Shown here piece by piece: positions 27,602 to 64,000 of a stretch of 64,000 nucleotides of DNA. This DNA is from Crossiella cryophila (GTDB lineage: Bacteria > Actinomycetota > Actinomycetes > Mycobacteriales > Pseudonocardiaceae): assembly GCF_014204915.1 (NCBI RefSeq), contig NZ_JACHMH010000001.1, positions 4,551,501-4,615,500 of the forward strand, in the 5' to 3' direction. How positions within the stretch are numbered: position 1 is the first letter of the stretch; the number at the start of each line of letters is the position of its first letter. A model generated the notes under the pieces. That model searched no databases, had not been told where the DNA came from, and worked only from the letters and a program-made list of their open reading frames with translations. The position numbers were made by a program, and so were the translations under genes.

Positions 27602-28236
27602 CTACCGACCGGTCGGTAGTGGCGCTGGCTGCCGTATCTGCTCACCGACCGAACGGTTGGTTGGGCTGCTGACCACCGTTCCGTTCGCCGACCGAATGGT
27701 TGGTTGGCGTGTTGGTCGCTGTTCCGCGCGCCGACCGAACGGTTGGTCGGGCGGCTAGCTGCCACTCCGCTCGTCGACCGACCGGTTGGTTGGGACGCAG
27801 ACCGTGATCCCGCTCGTCGACCGAACGGTTGGTCGGGATGGTGGTCGCTGTTTTGCTCGCCGACCGAATGGTTGGTAGAGGTTGCTGACCGCTGTGCTGC
27901 TTGCCGACCGAACGGTTGGTTGGGGTGCTGGCGACCGTTTCGCTCTTCGACCGAGCGACCGAGCGACCGAGCGACCGAGCGACCGAGCGACCGAGCGGTT
28001 GGTTGGTCGGGTGTTGATCGCGGCCCCGCTTGCCGATCGACCGGGCGGTGGGGGTGTTGACCGCTGCCTCGCTTGCCGACCGAATGGTTGGTTGGGGTGT
28101 TGACTACCGCCCCGTTCATCAACCGAACGGTCGGTCGGGGCGTTGGGGACTGTTCCGTGTGCCGACCGAATGGTCGGTAGGGGCTGCTGATCGCCGCCCC
28201 GCACGCAGCACGCAGCACGCCGACCGACCGGGTGGT
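27602..28236. repeat. Array of about 14 tandem 43-bp units with palindromic core
   Basis: Each unit carries the core ACCGAAYGGTTGGTTGGG or a close variant, a near-palindrome (ACCG/CGGT around AA). Core start positions are 27606, 27648, 27691, 27734, 27777, 27820, 27863, 27907, 27990, 28040, 28079, 28122, 28165 and 28227. Spacing is 42-44 bp for most; the 83-bp gap before 27990 equals 43 plus five extra copies of an 8-bp repeat. The outer 25 bases are less conserved (GTTCCGCTCGCCG before each core). The first unit is a perfect 18-bp palindrome CTACCGACCGGTCGGTAG. The period is not a multiple of three, arguing against coding. Confidence 0.85.
27949..27996. repeat. Six copies of the octamer GACCGAGC
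   Basis: Perfect head-to-tail copies at 27949, 27957, 27965, 27973, 27981 and 27989, ending in GGTTGGTTGG. It is an expansion of the left arm of one 43-bp unit, most simply explained by strand slippage. Confidence 0.9.
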
Positions 28237-39305: not shown

Positions 39306-39310
39306 CCCAC

Positions 39311-39491
39311 AACGGCCAACGAGCCGTCCCATAACCGCCAACACACCGTCCATAACGGCCAACACACCGTCCCAGAACGGCCAACACACCGTACGACAAC
39401 GGCCAACACGCCGGCGAGGGTTGGGGCTTGTCGGTGTGTTGGCCGGAATGGACGGTGTGTTGGCCGTTGTTGTACGCCGGGTTGGCCGTTG
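39311..39491. repeat. 22-bp repeat cluster, five direct and three inverted copies
   Basis: The unit is ACGGCCAACACACCGTCC plus about four bases. Direct copies start near 39312, 39334, 39355, 39377 and 39398; inverted copies (ACGGTGTGTTGGCCGT) lie near 39430, 39452 and 39474. The two blocks could fold into one long hairpin. The same unit recurs at 52030-52138. Confidence 0.8.
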
Positions 39492-47643: not shown

Positions 47644-47702
47644 TTTCAGTGTCGACCGAAAAAAAGGGGCGCGAGCGAGAGAAGGCAAACGCCGGGAGGG
47701 GG

Positions 47703-47756
47703 CCAGGGCTGCCAGGGCTGCCAGGGCTGCCAGGGCTGCCAGGGCTGCCAGGGCTG
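47703..47756. repeat. Six perfect copies of the nonamer CCAGGGCTG
   Basis: 54 bp of exact head-to-tail 9-mers just upstream of the ArsR promoter region. No mismatch, so it is recent or actively maintained. It is not within a supportable gene. Confidence 0.9.
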
Positions 47757-47816: not shown

Positions 47817-48149
47817 ATGTCCCACCCGGACCCCGACACCGAGGCCAGCGTCTTCCGCGCGCTGGCCGACTCCACCCGCCGCCAGATCCTGGAAGACCTC
47901 CGCGCCGGTGAACTCACCGCAGGCGAGATCGCCGCCCGGTTCACCATCAGCGGCCCGTCGATCTCCCGGCACCTGGGCGTGCTCAAGGCGGCCGGGCTGG
48001 TCCGGGAGCGGCGGCAGGCGAACCGGATCTTCTACGCCCTGGTCGAGGAGCGGCTCGCCCTCGGCGTGAACCGGTTTCTCAGCGCGGTGTGCCCGGAGCA
48101 GGCGCTGGTCCGCCATCGCCGCCGATCGAACCTGGAGGACCAGCCATGA
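47817..48149 (+). CDS. ArsR-family transcriptional regulator
   Basis: A 110-residue winged-helix repressor: VFRALADSTRRQILEDLRAGELTAGEIAARFTISGPSISRHLGVLKAAGLVRERRQANRIFYALV. No metal-binding cysteine motif (CxC) is seen, so it belongs to the non-metal group often paired with START or DUF2071 genes. AAGGA lies before the ATG. Its stop overlaps the ATG of the following gene. Confidence 0.88.
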   Translation: MSHPDPDTEASVFRALADSTRRQILEDLRAGELTAGEIAARFTISGPSISRHLGVLKAAGLVRERRQANRIFYALVEERLALGVNRFLSAVCPEQALVRHRRRSNLEDQP

Positions 48150-52029: not shown

Positions 52030-52138
52030 CGGCGTGTTGGCCGTTGTCGTACAGGGTGTTGGCCGAACTGGTACGCCCATCCGGCCAAGACACCGTCCAT
52101 AACGGCCAACACACCGTACGAGAACGGCCAACACGATG
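52030..52138. repeat. Second cluster of the 22-bp repeat, two inverted and three direct copies
   Basis: Inverted copies CGGCGTGTTGGCCGTTG at 52030 and GGGTGTTGGCCGAAC near 52054; direct copies CCGGCCAAGACACCGTCC at 52081, AACGGCCAACACACCGTAC at 52101 and AACGGCCAACACGATG at 52123. CATAACGGCCAACACACCGT is shared exactly with the cluster at 39.3 kb. It separates two same-strand genes (dehydrogenase and transporter). Confidence 0.8.
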
Positions 52139-57109: not shown

Positions 57110-57496
57110 TCAGCGAGAGATGCTCGCGTGCTGCGCCGACTTGGCGATGTGCCAGCACTCGTCGCAGGTGGTCCACAGGATCCACTCGCGTTCGGAGGCG
57201 GTGCGGGTGACGACCTGGCGGCCGCAGAGGGTGTCGGCGGGCTGGCCGGGGTGGTGCGAGCCGTGCGCGCCGCAGATGGCGTGCCTGCGGCCGTCCACCG
57301 GCATCCAGTAGAAGAGCAGCTGCTCGGGGCTGGGGTTGCCGAAGCCGGCCGGCCGGTCCAGCGCGGCGTAGTCGCTGAGCGCGGCGGTGCGGCCGGGCTC
57401 GTCGAGTCCGGTGTGCTCGCCGGGCCTGGCGCGCTCCTCGCGTGCGGCCGGGCCGCCGAGTGCGATGGGCAGGCCGGGCTCCGGTGCGATGGTCAT
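57110..57496 (-). CDS. Zinc-ribbon type protein co-transcribed with the amidase
   Basis: A 128-residue protein with a variable N-terminal half and a conserved C-terminal half: LLFYWMPVDGRRHAICGAHGSHHPGQPADTLCGRQV followed by WILWTTCDECWHIAKSA. The His/Cys pattern (H, C near residue 97 and C-x-x-C near 115) matches small actinobacterial zinc-finger proteins of the form YWMP-x-G-R-RHA ... CG ... TC-x-x-C. Function of the family is unknown. The ATG overlaps the amidase stop, so it is translated with the amidase. Confidence 0.75.
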   Translation of the reverse strand: MTIAPEPGLPIALGGPAAREERARPGEHTGLDEPGRTAALSDYAALDRPAGFGNPSPEQLLFYWMPVDGRRHAICGAHGSHHPGQPADTLCGRQVVTRTASEREWILWTTCDECWHIAKSAQHASISR

Positions 57497-59055
57497 GACT
57501 GCTCCCGGGTCGCGGCGAGGGGGGCGTGCGCGGGTGCGGGTGGGAAGCCACCCAGTGCGGTCTCCACGGCCCTGGCCACCCGCAGGCACAGGTCGTCGCG
57601 GTGGTGCGGGCCGACGATCATCATGCTCACCGGCAGCCCGTCCACCCGGCCCGCCGGCACGGCGATCGCGGGGTGGCCGCTGGCGTCGAACGGGGCCACG
57701 TTGGGCACCAGGCCCAGCGCGGCGATCACGTACTCCTCGCGGCTGGCCTCCGGGCCGGGCAGCGGGGTGGCCACGTGCGGGGCGGTGGGCAGCACCAGCA
57801 CGTCGACCTCGGCCAGCGCCCGGTCGTAGCCCTTGATCAGCTGCGGCACCAGGTTCTGGGCCATGCCGTAGTGCGCGCCGTGGTACTTGCCCAGGGTGTA
57901 GCCGCCGTTGAGCGTGACCAGCTTGACCGTCTCGGAGAAGGCGTCGGCGTGCTCGGCCCGGCCGCGCCCGAAGTGCGCGATCAGCTCGGGGTCGTAGCGC
58001 CCGGCCCAGTTCCGGCCGATCGCGTTGCCCTCGATCATCTGCCAGGCGATGCCGTCGGTGGCGATGACCTTCCAGACGTCCATGCCGGTGCGGTGCCAGG
58101 GCACCGAGATCGGGGTGACCTTGGCGCCTGCCTGTTCCAGCGCGTGGGCGGCGTTGCGCACGGTGTCGTCCACGCACGCCTGCGACAGCCCCGGGATGTC
58201 GAAGCCCTCGGTGAGCAGGCCGATCCGCAGGCCCTTGACGCCGTCGTCGAGGTGCCTGAGGTAGTCCGGCGGGCGCAGCGCGGAGTCCTGGCGCGGGTCG
58301 TCGGCGTCGTAGCCAGCCAGCGCGGTCAGCATCAGCGCGGCATCGCGCACGGTGCGGGTGATCGGGCCGAGGTGGTCCAGGGTGTTGTCCATGGAGAACG
58401 CGCCGGTGCAGGGCACCAGGCCGTAGGTCGGCTTGTGCCCGACCACGCCGCAGAAGGCCGCCGGGATCCGGATCGAGCCGCCCTGGTCGCCGCCAAGGCC
58501 CAGATCGGCCTCGCCGGTGGCCACCAGCACGGCCGGGCCCGAGGAGGAACCGCCGGAGGTGCGGGTCGGGTCCCACGGGTTGCGCACCGGGCCGGAGATC
58601 GCGGTGTGGCTGCCCGCGGAGTAGCAGAGGTCCTCGCAGGTGCCCTTGCCGACGATGGTCGCGCCCGCGTCCAGCAGGCGGCGCACCGCGGTGGCGTCCT
58701 CGCGCGGCACGAAACCCTGTAACGAGCGGGAGCCGTTACCCATCGGCACACCGGCCACCGCGATGTTGTCCTTGACCACCACGCGCCGGCCGGCCAGCGG
58801 GCCGTCCGCCTGCGTGGACAGCTCGGTGTAGACCTGCCAGGCGTTGAGCGGGTTCTCCGCGGCACTGGGCACGGCGTGGTTGCGCGTCGGCATCGGCGGG
58901 GCGTGCTCGGCGTAGAGCTTCTCCACCACGTCGTAGGAGGCCAGGGTGGGGATCATCAGCCCGCGGAAGGAGGACAGTGCGGCGTCGTCCAGGGTCAGGT
59001 TGTAACGCTCGGCCAGGGCGCGGAGATCTTCGATAGTGGGAGGGACTGTTCCCAT
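57493..59055 (-). CDS. Amidase-signature enzyme, nitrile-pathway type
   Basis: A 520-residue amidase. The Ser-cisSer-Lys triad is visible: Lys in VVVKDNIAVAGVPMG (near residue 95), cis-Ser in TSGGSSSGPAVL and the nucleophile Ser in GGDQGGSIRIPAAFCG. Many segments (ENPLNAW, CEDLCYSAGSHT, FCGVVGHKPTYGLVPCTGAF, LDHLGPITRTV) and the total length match the enantioselective amidases that accompany nitrile hydratase in Rhodococcus. These hydrolyse amides to acids and ammonia. No nitrile hydratase or aldoxime dehydratase gene lies in the window. It is divergent from an ArsR/AmiC-like regulatory pair. Confidence 0.9.
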   Translation of the reverse strand: MGTVPPTIEDLRALAERYNLTLDDAALSSFRGLMIPTLASYDVVEKLYAEHAPPMPTRNHAVPSAAENPLNAWQVYTELSTQADGPLAGRRVVVKDNIAVAGVPMGNGSRSLQGFVPREDATAVRRLLDAGATIVGKGTCEDLCYSAGSHTAISGPVRNPWDPTRTSGGSSSGPAVLVATGEADLGLGGDQGGSIRIPAAFCGVVGHKPTYGLVPCTGAFSMDNTLDHLGPITRTVRDAALMLTALAGYDADDPRQDSALRPPDYLRHLDDGVKGLRIGLLTEGFDIPGLSQACVDDTVRNAAHALEQAGAKVTPISVPWHRTGMDVWKVIATDGIAWQMIEGNAIGRNWAGRYDPELIAHFGRGRAEHADAFSETVKLVTLNGGYTLGKYHGAHYGMAQNLVPQLIKGYDRALAEVDVLVLPTAPHVATPLPGPEASREEYVIAALGLVPNVAPFDASGHPAIAVPAGRVDGLPVSMMIVGPHHRDDLCLRVARAVETALGGFPPAPAHAPLAATREQS

Positions 59056-59198
59056 GGCCGAAAATCCCCTCCAGCGTGCGATAGTGGAAAATCCGAGTTA
59101 CCGAAGCGTATTGACCTTCCCGTTACGTGTCAATGGATCTTGACGCGAACGTCTGTCCAGTCTGGTCCGGGCGAGTGGCGGAGAATCACCCACTCGTC

Positions 59199-59228
59199 TT
59201 GCTGCTTTCCCGGTGGATCGCCTACAGT
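59199..59228 (+). promoter_or_regulatory. Candidate sigma-70-type promoter for the ArsR/AmiC-like operon
   Basis: TTGCTG (59199-59204) and TACAGT (59223-59228) with an 18-bp spacer. Transcription would start near 59235, which places any upstream in-frame start codon outside the mRNA and supports the GTG at 59280 or 59247 for the regulator. Confidence 0.5.
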
Positions 59229-59279
59229 GATCAAATTGGGGCGGTCGTGGGGGCCGAACGAGCTTGGTGGGTGGTTTCT

Positions 59280-59630
59280 GTGGGCGGTGGTGCGTCCGCA
59301 TTCGACGCGTTGGCCGACGACACCCGTCGGACCGTGCTCACTCTCCTGCGCGAGCACGGCGAGCTGACCGTGACCGAGTTGGCCGGACACATCGAGCACA
59401 TCGGCCGCACCGCGGTGTCGATGCAGCTCAAGGTGTTGCGTGAGGCAGGCATGGTGCAGGAGCGCCGGGCCGGCAAATATCGCTATTACTCCCTGCGGGT
59501 CGAGCCGATCAATGACGTGGTGGCGTTTCTGAGCACCCTGTACGGAGCGTCGCTGGACGGACTCGCTACGATCACGGCGAAGCACCGCGATCCGGAGGCG
59601 GAACAGCGCAGGTGGGGAACCTCGTACTGA
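59280..59630 (+). CDS. ArsR-family regulator of the amidase region
   Basis: About 116 residues from the GTG at 59280: ASAFDALADDTRRTVLTLLREHGELTVTELAGHIEHIGRTAVSMQLKVLREAGMVQERRAGKYRYYSLRVEPINDVVAFL, a clear winged helix with the recognition helix in TAVSMQLKVL. No metal motif. The longer frame reaches back to 59127 but crosses the likely promoter. It overlaps the following gene by 19 bases. In Rhodococcus nitrile-hydratase clusters an ArsR-type repressor (NhlD) and an AmiC-like sensor work together; the same pair is seen here. Confidence 0.8.
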   Translation: MGGGASAFDALADDTRRTVLTLLREHGELTVTELAGHIEHIGRTAVSMQLKVLREAGMVQERRAGKYRYYSLRVEPINDVVAFLSTLYGASLDGLATITAKHRDPEAEQRRWGTSY

Positions 59631-61045
59631 CTCAGCAGCGGGACGTCGCCCTGCCACCGGGGGACGTCTTCGGACTGCTGGGACAGGACAAGGAAGCCGG
59701 CTGGCTCTTCGGCGCCGACTACGACGCGTTCATGGTCGGCGGCCTGGTCCGCTTCGAGCTTCCGGTCAATCCCGCCGATCCGCAGAGCCCGACCATCGAG
59801 GCCGTGGGTCGCATCGCCTACCTCAACCCGCCGCACAAGATCGTCATCGAGCAGCAGGTGCCCTGGCCCGGCCGGGTCTCCTGCACCATGACGCTGACCA
59901 ACGGCGGTCGCGGCACCACCGTGCGGCTGGGCGTCGAGGTGCCGGATGACGCGGTCACCTGGTTACTCCGGCAACGTGGCTATGACCCCCTTGAGGAGCT
60001 GGCCGGACCGAGCACGATCCGGATCGGTGTACTGGTCAGCAAATCGGGCCCGGCCAGCATCTTCGGCGGGACCACCGAGAACCTGGCCCGGATGGCCGCC
60101 GACGAGGTCAACGCCGACGGCGGCGTGGACGGCTGCCGCCTCCAGGTCGTCATCCGCGACGACGCCAGCTCACCGGACATCGGCGCCGAGCAGTTCCAGC
60201 GCCTGGTCCGCGCCGACGGCTGCCGGGTCGTGGTCACCAACTGCACCTCCGCGGTGTTTCCGGTCCTGGCCAAGTGGGCCAGGAAACTGGGTGTTCTCCT
60301 GGTGCACACGCCGATCAACGAGGGCGGCCGGTTCTCACCCAGCGTGGTGCGCCTGGGCGAACGACCCTCCGCCCAGCTGCGCGCCGCGCTGCCCTCGCTG
60401 GTCGCCGAGACCGGCGGCCGCACCTTCCTGTGCGGCGATGACTACGTCTGGCCGCGGGTGTGCAACCGCGAGGCCCGCCGGATCATCGAACAGCTCGGTG
60501 GCTCGGTCGTCGCCGAACGGTACAAACCCTTGGGCACCAAGGACTTCGGCGACATCGTCGAGGAGATCATCAGCACCGGCGCCAGCCTGGTGATCTCCAC
60601 CTTCGTCGGCTCCGACGAAGCCCACTTCGAGCGCCAGAGCCACGCCGCGGGGCTGCGGTCCCGCTGCCGGACGCTGTCCATGGCCTTCGACGAGTCCACC
60701 CGGGAGCTGACCGGCGGCATCGCCGCGCAGGGCGTGTACAGCGCCTTCAGCTACTTCCAAGAGGTCGACTCCGCTACCAACACCGCCTTTCTCCATCGTT
60801 ACCGGGACCGCTTCGGGGCCGGCGCCGCTCCGTTGTCCAGCATCACCGAATCGGTCTACGAGGCCATTCACATGCTCGCCTCCAGCGGTGCCCTGCGCCG
60901 GGAGTTCGACCTGGGCTCGCTGTCGGCGGCGATGCGTGAGCAACGTGAGTCCACCCTCTGGCGGTCCGCACGTCCGGCCCAGGGCAAGGCGCCGCTGTTC
61001 CTCGCCAAGGCCGTGCCCCACGGTTTCACCATCGTCGAGCGCTGA
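59612..61045 (+). CDS. START/SRPBCC domain fused to an AmiC-like amide-binding domain
   Basis: A 477-residue cytoplasmic protein with no signal peptide. Residues 1-125 form an SRPBCC (AHSA1-like) domain: VALPPGDVFGLLGQDKEAGWLFGADYDAF and GRIAYLNPPHKIVIEQQVPWPGRVSCTMTLTN. From about 135 a type 1 periplasmic-binding fold of the AmiC group begins: IRIGVLVSKSGPASIFGGTTENLARMAADEVNADGGVDG, then GDDYVWPRVCNREARRIIEQLGG and VISTFVGSDEAHF. AmiC binds short amides and controls amidase expression. START proteins are frequent ArsR partners. The gene is coupled to ArsR by a 19-base overlap, so it is most likely an amide-responsive co-regulator. I know of no described example of this exact fusion. Confidence 0.78.
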   Translation: MGNLVLTQQRDVALPPGDVFGLLGQDKEAGWLFGADYDAFMVGGLVRFELPVNPADPQSPTIEAVGRIAYLNPPHKIVIEQQVPWPGRVSCTMTLTNGGRGTTVRLGVEVPDDAVTWLLRQRGYDPLEELAGPSTIRIGVLVSKSGPASIFGGTTENLARMAADEVNADGGVDGCRLQVVIRDDASSPDIGAEQFQRLVRADGCRVVVTNCTSAVFPVLAKWARKLGVLLVHTPINEGGRFSPSVVRLGERPSAQLRAALPSLVAETGGRTFLCGDDYVWPRVCNREARRIIEQLGGSVVAERYKPLGTKDFGDIVEEIISTGASLVISTFVGSDEAHFERQSHAAGLRSRCRTLSMAFDESTRELTGGIAAQGVYSAFSYFQEVDSATNTAFLHRYRDRFGAGAAPLSSITESVYEAIHMLASSGALRREFDLGSLSAAMREQRESTLWRSARPAQGKAPLFLAKAVPHGFTIVER

Positions 61046-62844: not shown

Positions 62845-64000
62845 ATGGGCCTGCTTCCCGCCGAGATTCCGGACATCCCCGAGGTCAGGGCCGAGATCGT
62901 GCCGGCCCGGCTGGCTCGTAAGCTCGCCCCGCTCTTCGGCGTTCCATGGCCGAGGGGCCCCTTCGGCACTCGCACCTGGGTCTGCGACTACAACAAGCTC
63001 ACGCTCTCCGAGATCGCCCGCGGCGCGCCGATGCCCGGCAGGCGGTCGGACACCGCGGTGGCCGGCGAGGCCGACTGGGCCATCGTCGACCGGGTCGCGG
63101 TCACCCGCCCCGGCGGCGCCCTGCCGAATGAGATCCCCAACGCCACCCTCAACCGCTTCGGCCCCGACACCAAGGCCGCCGTGGTGCTGACCGCGGCCAA
63201 CCGCCTGCTGGACCCGGTCACCGACGCGATCGAGACCGCCCTGGCCCGGCTGGTGTCCGCCGACGGCACACCCCTGCCCGCCCGGTTGCGCGTGGTGGCC
63301 TGGGCCGCGCTGGTGCTGGAGGCGTTCCGCACCCAGCCCGCGCTGGTCGCCGCGGCCATCCGGGCCCGCACCATCCAGCGCGAACTTCTCGTGGAGTGGC
63401 AGTTGCCGCTGGCCGAGTCGATCGCCGCGCTGCCGCTGACCCGGAGCGAGGTGGGCAGGCCACAGCCGGTGGTCGAGGGTGCCGGTTCCCGCGCGAAGGA
63501 CGGTGGCGCGGCGGACCGTGGTGGGGTGGCGGGCGCTGTGGATTGGGGCGCTGCGGACCGTGGTGGGGCGGATCGTGGTGGGGTGGCGGGAGCGGCCGAT
63601 CGTGGTGTGGCGGACCGTGGTGGGGTGGCGGGTCTTGCGGACAGGGGCGCTGCGGACAGGGGCGCGGCCGAGAGCGGCGGGGTGACGGGCGCGGCGGATC
63701 GTGGTGCGGCGGAGCGTGGTGGCGCGGCGGGTGCTGCGGATCGTGGTGCGGCGGAGCGTGGTGGCGCGGCGCGCGGCCGGGATACCGCATCCGCGTCGCG
63801 GCCCCGCGAGCTGGATCTCGCCGACCGGACCGTCCGCGGGCTCGGCGTCAGCGCACCCGATGACCTCGTGGACCGGTTGTTGCGACAGCTCATGGCCATC
63901 GGCACCCGGCAGAGTTCCAGCCACCTCTGGCTCAGCGAACGCGCCCCCGGCCAACTCGCCGTCGAAGCCCTGGTGCCCCCCACCGAGGTGCTGGGCCGCT
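62845..64000 (+). CDS. Unknown protein with Ala-Asp-Arg-Gly low-complexity insert (3' end outside window)
   Basis: ATG at 62845 with AAGGAG 5 bases upstream opens a frame that stays open to the window end (385 codons). Residues 1-205 look like an ordinary folded region: MGLLPAEIPDIPEVRAEI, GVPWPRGPFGTRTWVCDYNKL, and helices around TAANRLLDPVTDAIETALARL. Residues about 210-312 are a low-complexity run of imperfect units such as AADRGGVAG and GAAERGGAAG. A normal sequence resumes at RELDLADRTVRGLG. No family recognised. Being divergent from 61749-62744, it is probably functionally linked to it. Confidence 0.65.
   Translation, partial: MGLLPAEIPDIPEVRAEIVPARLARKLAPLFGVPWPRGPFGTRTWVCDYNKLTLSEIARGAPMPGRRSDTAVAGEADWAIVDRVAVTRPGGALPNEIPNATLNRFGPDTKAAVVLTAANRLLDPVTDAIETALARLVSADGTPLPARLRVVAWAALVLEAFRTQPALVAAAIRARTIQRELLVEWQLPLAESIAALPLTRSEVGRPQPVVEGAGSRAKDGGAADRGGVAGAVDWGAADRGGADRGGVAGAADRGVADRGGVAGLADRGAADRGAAESGGVTGAADRGAAERGGAAGAADRGAAERGGAARGRDTASASRPRELDLADRTVRGLGVSAPDDLVDRLLRQLMAIGTRQSSSHLWLSERAPGQLAVEALVPPTEVLGR

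Follow-up and report, generated by a model that had tools for sequence, protein, structure and literature searches.

We analysed a 64,000-nt stretch of Crossiella cryophila DNA (contig NZ_JACHMH010000001.1, positions 4,551,501 to 4,615,500; called the window below), from a genome of 10.06 Mb in one contig, and examined within it a four-gene cassette at 57110–61045. Open reading frames and domain scans placed genes for an amidase and a zf-HC3 protein on the minus strand, back to back with genes for an ArsR-family regulator and a fusion protein on the plus strand. This layout, with a 19-base overlap of the arsR and fusion genes, had been described in an earlier note made from the DNA letters alone, and both the coordinates and the Pfam/NCBIfam matches confirmed it. 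The amidase gene (57493–59055, minus strand) encodes a 520-aa, RhAmidase-like protein of the amidase signature type, with the motifs VKDN, GGSSSG and GGSIR. It matched Pfam Amidase at E 6.3e-91, NCBIfam NF005565 at 685.8 bits (curated cut-off 545) and, over residues 1–509, PDB 3a1k, the Rhodococcus N-771 amidase, at E 5.6e-183. At 58% over the part compared with the amidase of pNit from Rhodococcus rhodochrous BAA-870, it is related to the amidase of nitrile hydratase (NHase) clusters. The zf-HC3 zinc-finger gene (57110–57496, minus strand; 128 aa; PF16827, 35.6 bits against a cut-off of 25) has its ATG within the end of the amidase gene, so that the two genes share 4 bases at the stop of the amidase. 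The ArsR protein (59280–59630, plus strand; 116 aa) matched HTH_5 at E 3.7e-10 and the metalloregulator ArsR/SmtB family NF033788 at 76.3 bits (cut-off 55). It has no cysteine, which makes a metal signal unlikely; among 76 ArsR proteins, 36 have none, 38 have one and 2 have two. The fusion gene (59612–61045, plus strand) encodes 477 aa, with a probable SRPBCC domain at residues ~1–125 and an AmiC/UrtA-type amide-binding domain from ~135.

By sequence comparison, the C-terminal domain of the fusion can be classed firmly as AmiC/UrtA-like. Residues 135–424 matched Peripla_BP_6 at E 2.2e-62, urea-binding proteins and AmiC were among the top matches in PDB, and the match to AmiC itself (1pea) had an E-value of 1.9e-21, as expected of an AmiC-type amide-binding domain. 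Y278, W280, S213 and the pair N236-E237 are invariant in a family alignment of 44 rows. Y278 aligned with Y150 of AmiC; for S213 the probable counterpart is S85, in a stretch that can be aligned in more than one way. Both AmiC residues are contact residues. No signal-peptide-like or hydrophobic leader stretch was found in the fusion ahead of this domain, and a cytoplasmic sensor is therefore likely.

The earlier note had assigned the N-terminal part to the SRPBCC fold; here the scores were weaker than for the C-terminal part of the proposed fusion. The N-domain of the window protein alone matched AHSA1 at E 0.0011 and 19.6 bits, under the Pfam cut-off of 22.1. At E-values up to 0.05, 13 of 44 aligned family N-domains matched Polyketide_cyc2 (best E 1.1e-6) and 8 matched AHSA1, with two other families matched by one each; in a rescan of six N-domains, five had no match at E 0.01. 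Profile–profile comparison by hhalign with the 12 AHSA1 proteins of the same genome gave a probability of 71.5 and E 3.6e-5, compared with 2.0 for an ArsR control. Using the N-domain profile against PDB, we found 3q6a as the first match (E 0.0056 for the whole sequence, 0.044 for the best stretch). A model of the N-domain only, of low confidence (pLDDT 50.5), matched several chains labelled AHSA1 or polyketide cyclase (best Foldseek E 0.038, best Z 4.2, both weak). All Foldseek and VIA matches of this model were weak, and they include many helix-grip proteins together with proteases, a lipocalin-like protein, myosin and Tudor chains. Taken together, several weak lines agree, none sufficient alone, and the N-domain is probably SRPBCC. 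A structure prediction for the whole fusion was unusable for this domain (mean pLDDT 53.7, with 21–41 in ten-residue blocks up to residue 130); the model was built from 4 rows, and the alignments were shallow, containing only the window and related-locus rows.

The earlier note knew of no description of such a fusion. We found a match at E 1e-20 or better in 210 of 390 genomes of the family, and the full-length fusion in at least 76 places in 73 of the 390, the own genome included, counting by hand the listed rows that begin within the first 20 query residues. The nearest named relatives of the locus are in two Crossiella strains (Pseudonocardiaceae), with fusion identities of 94 and 98%. In a sample of the phylum, 31 of 396 genomes matched at E 1e-40, with full-length matches only in the own genome and G615 and C-domain matches only in the other 29. 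A plasmid collection contained 8 records matching from residue 1–3 on (7 Rhodococcus, 1 Paenarthrobacter), and a scan of viral contigs gave no relative. Given this spread among genomes and the plasmid records, the fusion is shared by several genera and travels on plasmids as well. One genome (G360; loci L150 and L107) carries a decaying fusion copy, with one TGA stop and a frame change inside the gene. An open-licence literature search returned, among the matches listed, no paper describing the fusion or naming NhlC/NhlD.

We also compared the gene neighbourhoods of 77 full-length loci besides the window, 73 from genomes and 4 from plasmid regions, with flanks of 6–8 kb or less at contig ends. 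Three loci were dropped before counting: L102, on a short contig with the N-terminal part of the fusion unmatched, and L106 and L107, which had no full fusion match. Protein alignments and spacer tests used 42 to 44 non-redundant loci, with the window standing for L002 in the protein alignments. In 75 of the 77 loci, no more than 300 bases separate the fusion gene from an arsR gene upstream of it, which in L075 seems to have a broken frame; the remaining two loci have arsR at another place. NHase genes are present in 52 loci and an amidase at least 50% identical to that of the window or pNit in 59; one or both are present in 67. The earlier note had named two results that would speak against its reading, a domain search without support for SRPBCC and a fusion unlinked to amidase genes in other genomes, and neither was obtained, although the SRPBCC support is weak. 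Cobalt transporter genes occur in some of the NHase loci. On pNit the order is ArsR (112 aa), a full-length fusion relative of 471 aa, NHase beta, NHase alpha, an accessory protein, a cobalt transporter and an amidase. Many actinobacteria have this gene pair next to their nitrile-converting genes, so that the cassette represents a known control system in variant form rather than an isolated curiosity. In locus L090 the fusion and arsR genes lie at opposite ends of the amidase/NHase gene cluster, and the pair is thus separable.

The known system closest to the cassette is NhlD/NhlC of the low-molecular-mass NHase of R. rhodochrous J1. Its gene order, for which NhlC (AmiC-like) and NhlD were reportedly described, matches that of pNit, and these two regulators are expected at the position of the ArsR/fusion pair in the pNit NHase cluster. 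The AmiC-like protein of Rhodococcus NHase control, which the earlier note had cited as a parallel, is thus, by synteny, probably the same fusion. The window shares with this system an ArsR-type gene followed by an AmiC-like gene, as in pNit, and the link to the amidase of NHase clusters; it differs in having no NHase genes and an inverted amidase gene. Without NHase linkage, the cassette is a variant and not a member of the NhlD/NhlC type. With AmiC/AmiR of Pseudomonas aeruginosa it shares an AmiC-type amide-binding domain adjoining an amidase, but the partner is ArsR and the likely point of control is the promoter. In agreement with the earlier note, which saw no AmiR-type partner, no ANTAR domain was found by Pfam among the six neighbourhood proteins scanned, the rest of the genome not being searched. 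The stand-alone AmiC-like proteins of other actinobacteria correspond to the C-domain-only matches of the phylum sample. At least one such locus also has a match of the NHase accessory type, whereas among 20 fetched loci of that search this type of ArsR was matched only at the two full-length ones. The parts are ordinary and the whole is newly recognised: NHase-type regulation in an amidase-only variant, which combines a sensor fusion with a candidate operator that is conserved.

The divergent layout of the window is common to Crossiella, genus g9 and Goodfellowiella, with eight other loci, and the six sampled divergent rows formed one group in the tree (SH-aLRT 100). A search for NHase alpha (PF02979) gave no match in any of nine genomes with this layout, including that of the window; 3 of 6 other genomes in the same search gave 9 matches. 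This fits the earlier suggestion that the natural substrate is an amide and not a nitrile. By the tree, the NHase-less state could be either old or derived, and we make no claim of NHase loss in the clade. A zf-HC3 relative occurs in seven of the eight other divergent loci and is absent from that of Goodfellowiella. The overlap of arsR and fusion genes is exactly 19 bases in the window and in all eight, while elsewhere these genes mostly overlap by 1 base or are 3–246 bases apart. Since it is peculiar to the divergent clade, the overlap, which the earlier note had offered as the coupling of sensor and ArsR, is real but not the mechanism.

When the nine spacers between the divergent genes, that of the window being 224 bp long, were aligned, a single long common block was found, the palindrome GTCAATGGATCTTGAC (GTCA-N8-TGAC; 59129–59144 in the window), which in Goodfellowiella reads GTCAATCGATCGTGAC, with two changed bases. 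It is the only exact GTCA-N8-TGAC in the window, where 0.87 would be expected, and the extended form GTCAA-N6-TTGAC has 4 exact places in the genome compared with 3 for a reversed control pattern. As a sequence, then, the palindrome is not rare, and what tells is only where it lies. The 77 loci contain 48 exact sites, and 37 of these fall in the 320 bases ahead of an arsR, amidase or NHase-beta gene, stretches that make up 5% of the bases and in which 2.4 sites would be expected; without the eight clade loci where the motif was found, the figure by hand count is 29 of 39, relatedness among loci inflating all such counts. Upstream of arsR, an exact N8 site was present in 10 of 42 loci; when 12 other spacers were tried, none of them gave a site in any of the 42. 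Outside the motif-discovery set the N8 site was present in 7 of 39 non-redundant loci, and spacers of 2 to 14 other than 8 gave none. Between the fusion gene and the next gene, with at most one mismatch, N8 was found in 18 of 26 loci, other spacers in at most 6, and shuffled sequences gave a maximum of 5. On pNit, exact palindromes precede both arsR and NHase-beta.

The palindrome of the window overlaps a candidate amidase promoter on the minus strand (59105–59133), in which TTGACA (59133–59128) and TACGCT (59110–59105) are separated by 17 bases. Counting the window and the members of its clade, 23 sites lie on the side of the amidase or NHase genes, and in 22 of them the inner half of the palindrome reads TTGAC. 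In all 22 of these a TANNNT follows 17–18 bases after TTGAC, compared with 0 or 1 at other offsets and a mean of 0.64 (at most 3) in shuffled tails. Part of the site thus falls on the -35 box of what looks like a promoter. A candidate arsR promoter (TTGCTG, 18 bases, TACAGT; 59199–59228, plus strand) was picked by eye, is weak and did not appear in a sigma-70 scan. That scan reported no promoter in 59020–59320, its -10 rule being stricter than TANNNT.

We consider it likely that the cassette is an amide-inducible switch in which ArsR represses the amidase gene and the fusion relays the binding of an amide to ArsR. An ArsR dimer on the palindrome would block RNA polymerase at the amidase promoter, the candidate -35 box being half of the palindrome. 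The fusion, made together with ArsR, would remain in the cytoplasm and bind a small amide in its AmiC-like domain. The amide-bound fusion would then change its contact with ArsR, for which the SRPBCC domain is the best candidate, and repression would be lifted, with production of the amidase and the zf-HC3 protein. Release of the divergent amidase promoter had been proposed in the earlier note and gains support from the conserved, operator-like palindrome on the candidate -35 box.

Several observations weigh against such a switch. In 7 of the 77 loci only a more distant amidase is present, and three (L082, L091 and L110) have no amidase or NHase match in the 6–8 kb flanks. Many loci in several clades (for example L069, L080, L086, L094 and L099–L101) have no site at up to one mismatch in either stretch examined. 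In the window, the end of the palindrome lies 135 bases from the start of arsR, and autoregulation of arsR is unclear. The SRPBCC assignment is built on weak scores. Covariation with ArsR was no higher for the N-domain than for the C-domain (partial 0.34 versus 0.40); as the two are not told apart, it lends no support to a special ArsR–SRPBCC contact. An open-licence literature search found no demonstration of binding, ligand or direction. Finally, the genome paper of BAA-870, a strain whose NHase cluster has the same gene pair, describes that NHase as constitutively expressed, an argument against its being tightly controlled there; regulatory elements in the cluster are noted as well (PMC6941271).

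The relation between ArsR and SRPBCC proteins is not confined to this cassette. In the genome of the window, 9 of 12 AHSA1 genes adjoin an arsR gene. In one of these pairs, at 5922313–5923071 of the genome (L158), the ArsR and AHSA1 domains occur in a single open frame of 286 aa, a natural ArsR–SRPBCC fusion. A passage of Makarova et al. (2009, PMC2701414) treats ArsR-COG3832 pairs as a stable two-gene unit in which ArsR is without the usual metal motifs, and lists these common pairs among toxin–antitoxin-like ones. The cassette shares with these Aha1/START modules an ArsR without metal-binding cysteines. As to their adjoining AHSA1/SRPBCC domain, the N-domain of the window fusion scores below the Pfam cut-off, and the weak profile and fold evidence favours such a domain. 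The modules have no counterpart of the AmiC-type sensor that follows this domain in the fusion, nor of the link to an amidase. The ArsR and the fusion look like an ArsR-COG3832-type unit that acquired an AmiC-type domain. Such pairs could also mean that the ArsR–SRPBCC part is a self-contained, autoregulated stress module with the amidase as an incidental neighbour, for which their abundance, the toxin–antitoxin-like listing and the nine pairs of this genome speak. We believe this to be improbable in view of the amidase/NHase linkage in 67 of 77 loci and of palindromes found not only before arsR but also on the side of the amidase or NHase-beta gene.

Other roles for the two proteins are conceivable. 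The fusion could itself be a positive factor, or a co-repressor of ArsR until an amide releases it, with the SRPBCC domain binding a second ligand rather than ArsR. In J1 NhlC is said to have been assigned a positive and NhlD a negative role, and SRPBCC domains often bind hydrophobic ligands. Since a Pfam scan found no DNA-binding domain in the fusion, and a site on a -35 box is typical of repression, we regard these arrangements as unlikely, although somewhat less so than the stress module. Least probable of all, to our minds, is an ordinary metal sensor for zinc or cobalt, connected through the zf-HC3 protein or the cobalt of NHase, with the fusion acting separately. The NF033788 match and the cobalt transporter genes of some NHase loci would suit it, but the cysteine counts of the ArsR proteins and the unmatched NHase-alpha search of the window genome do not.

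Within the amide-inducible switch, our boldest proposal is that the SRPBCC domain serves as a docking adapter, by which a sensor of the periplasmic-binding-protein type is plugged into an ArsR repressor. We put it forward tentatively and hold it to be possible rather than probable. If it were true, the many bacterial ArsR–SRPBCC pairs would be repressor–sensor pairs in which SRPBCC relays the signal to an ArsR without a metal site, and amide or urea induction of industrial NHase clusters would run through the SRPBCC–ArsR contact. According to a 2020 paper, it was still unclear how urea induces the high-molecular-mass NHase of R. rhodochrous J1 (PMC7105576). With the present analysis the regulators of NHase and amidase gain a domain layout, a family spread across many actinobacteria and an operator that can be tested. 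Control of this kind, and the role of ArsR–SRPBCC pairs too, could conveniently be studied on a cassette as small as this one, which has an amidase but no NHase and a single operator-like site. Use as an amide biosensor is a further possibility.

The window contains a second gene of the ArsR family (47817–48149, 110 aa), which overlaps the start of a larger open reading frame (ORF) and scored 66 bits with a profile of the fusion-linked ArsR proteins. Just upstream of it, a 9-base unit, GCCAGGGCT, is present in six perfect copies (47702–47756). Within an array of 43-base repeats at 27624–28202, positions 27948–27997 are taken up instead by successive copies of the 8-base unit CGACCGAG. Two tandem arrays 12.7 kb apart, at 39306–39413 and 52082–52134, have units with CGGCCAACACACCGT in common. 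At 63491–63781, tandem repeats with periods of 15, 42, 57 and 99 bases lie inside Ala/Pro/Arg-rich ORFs.

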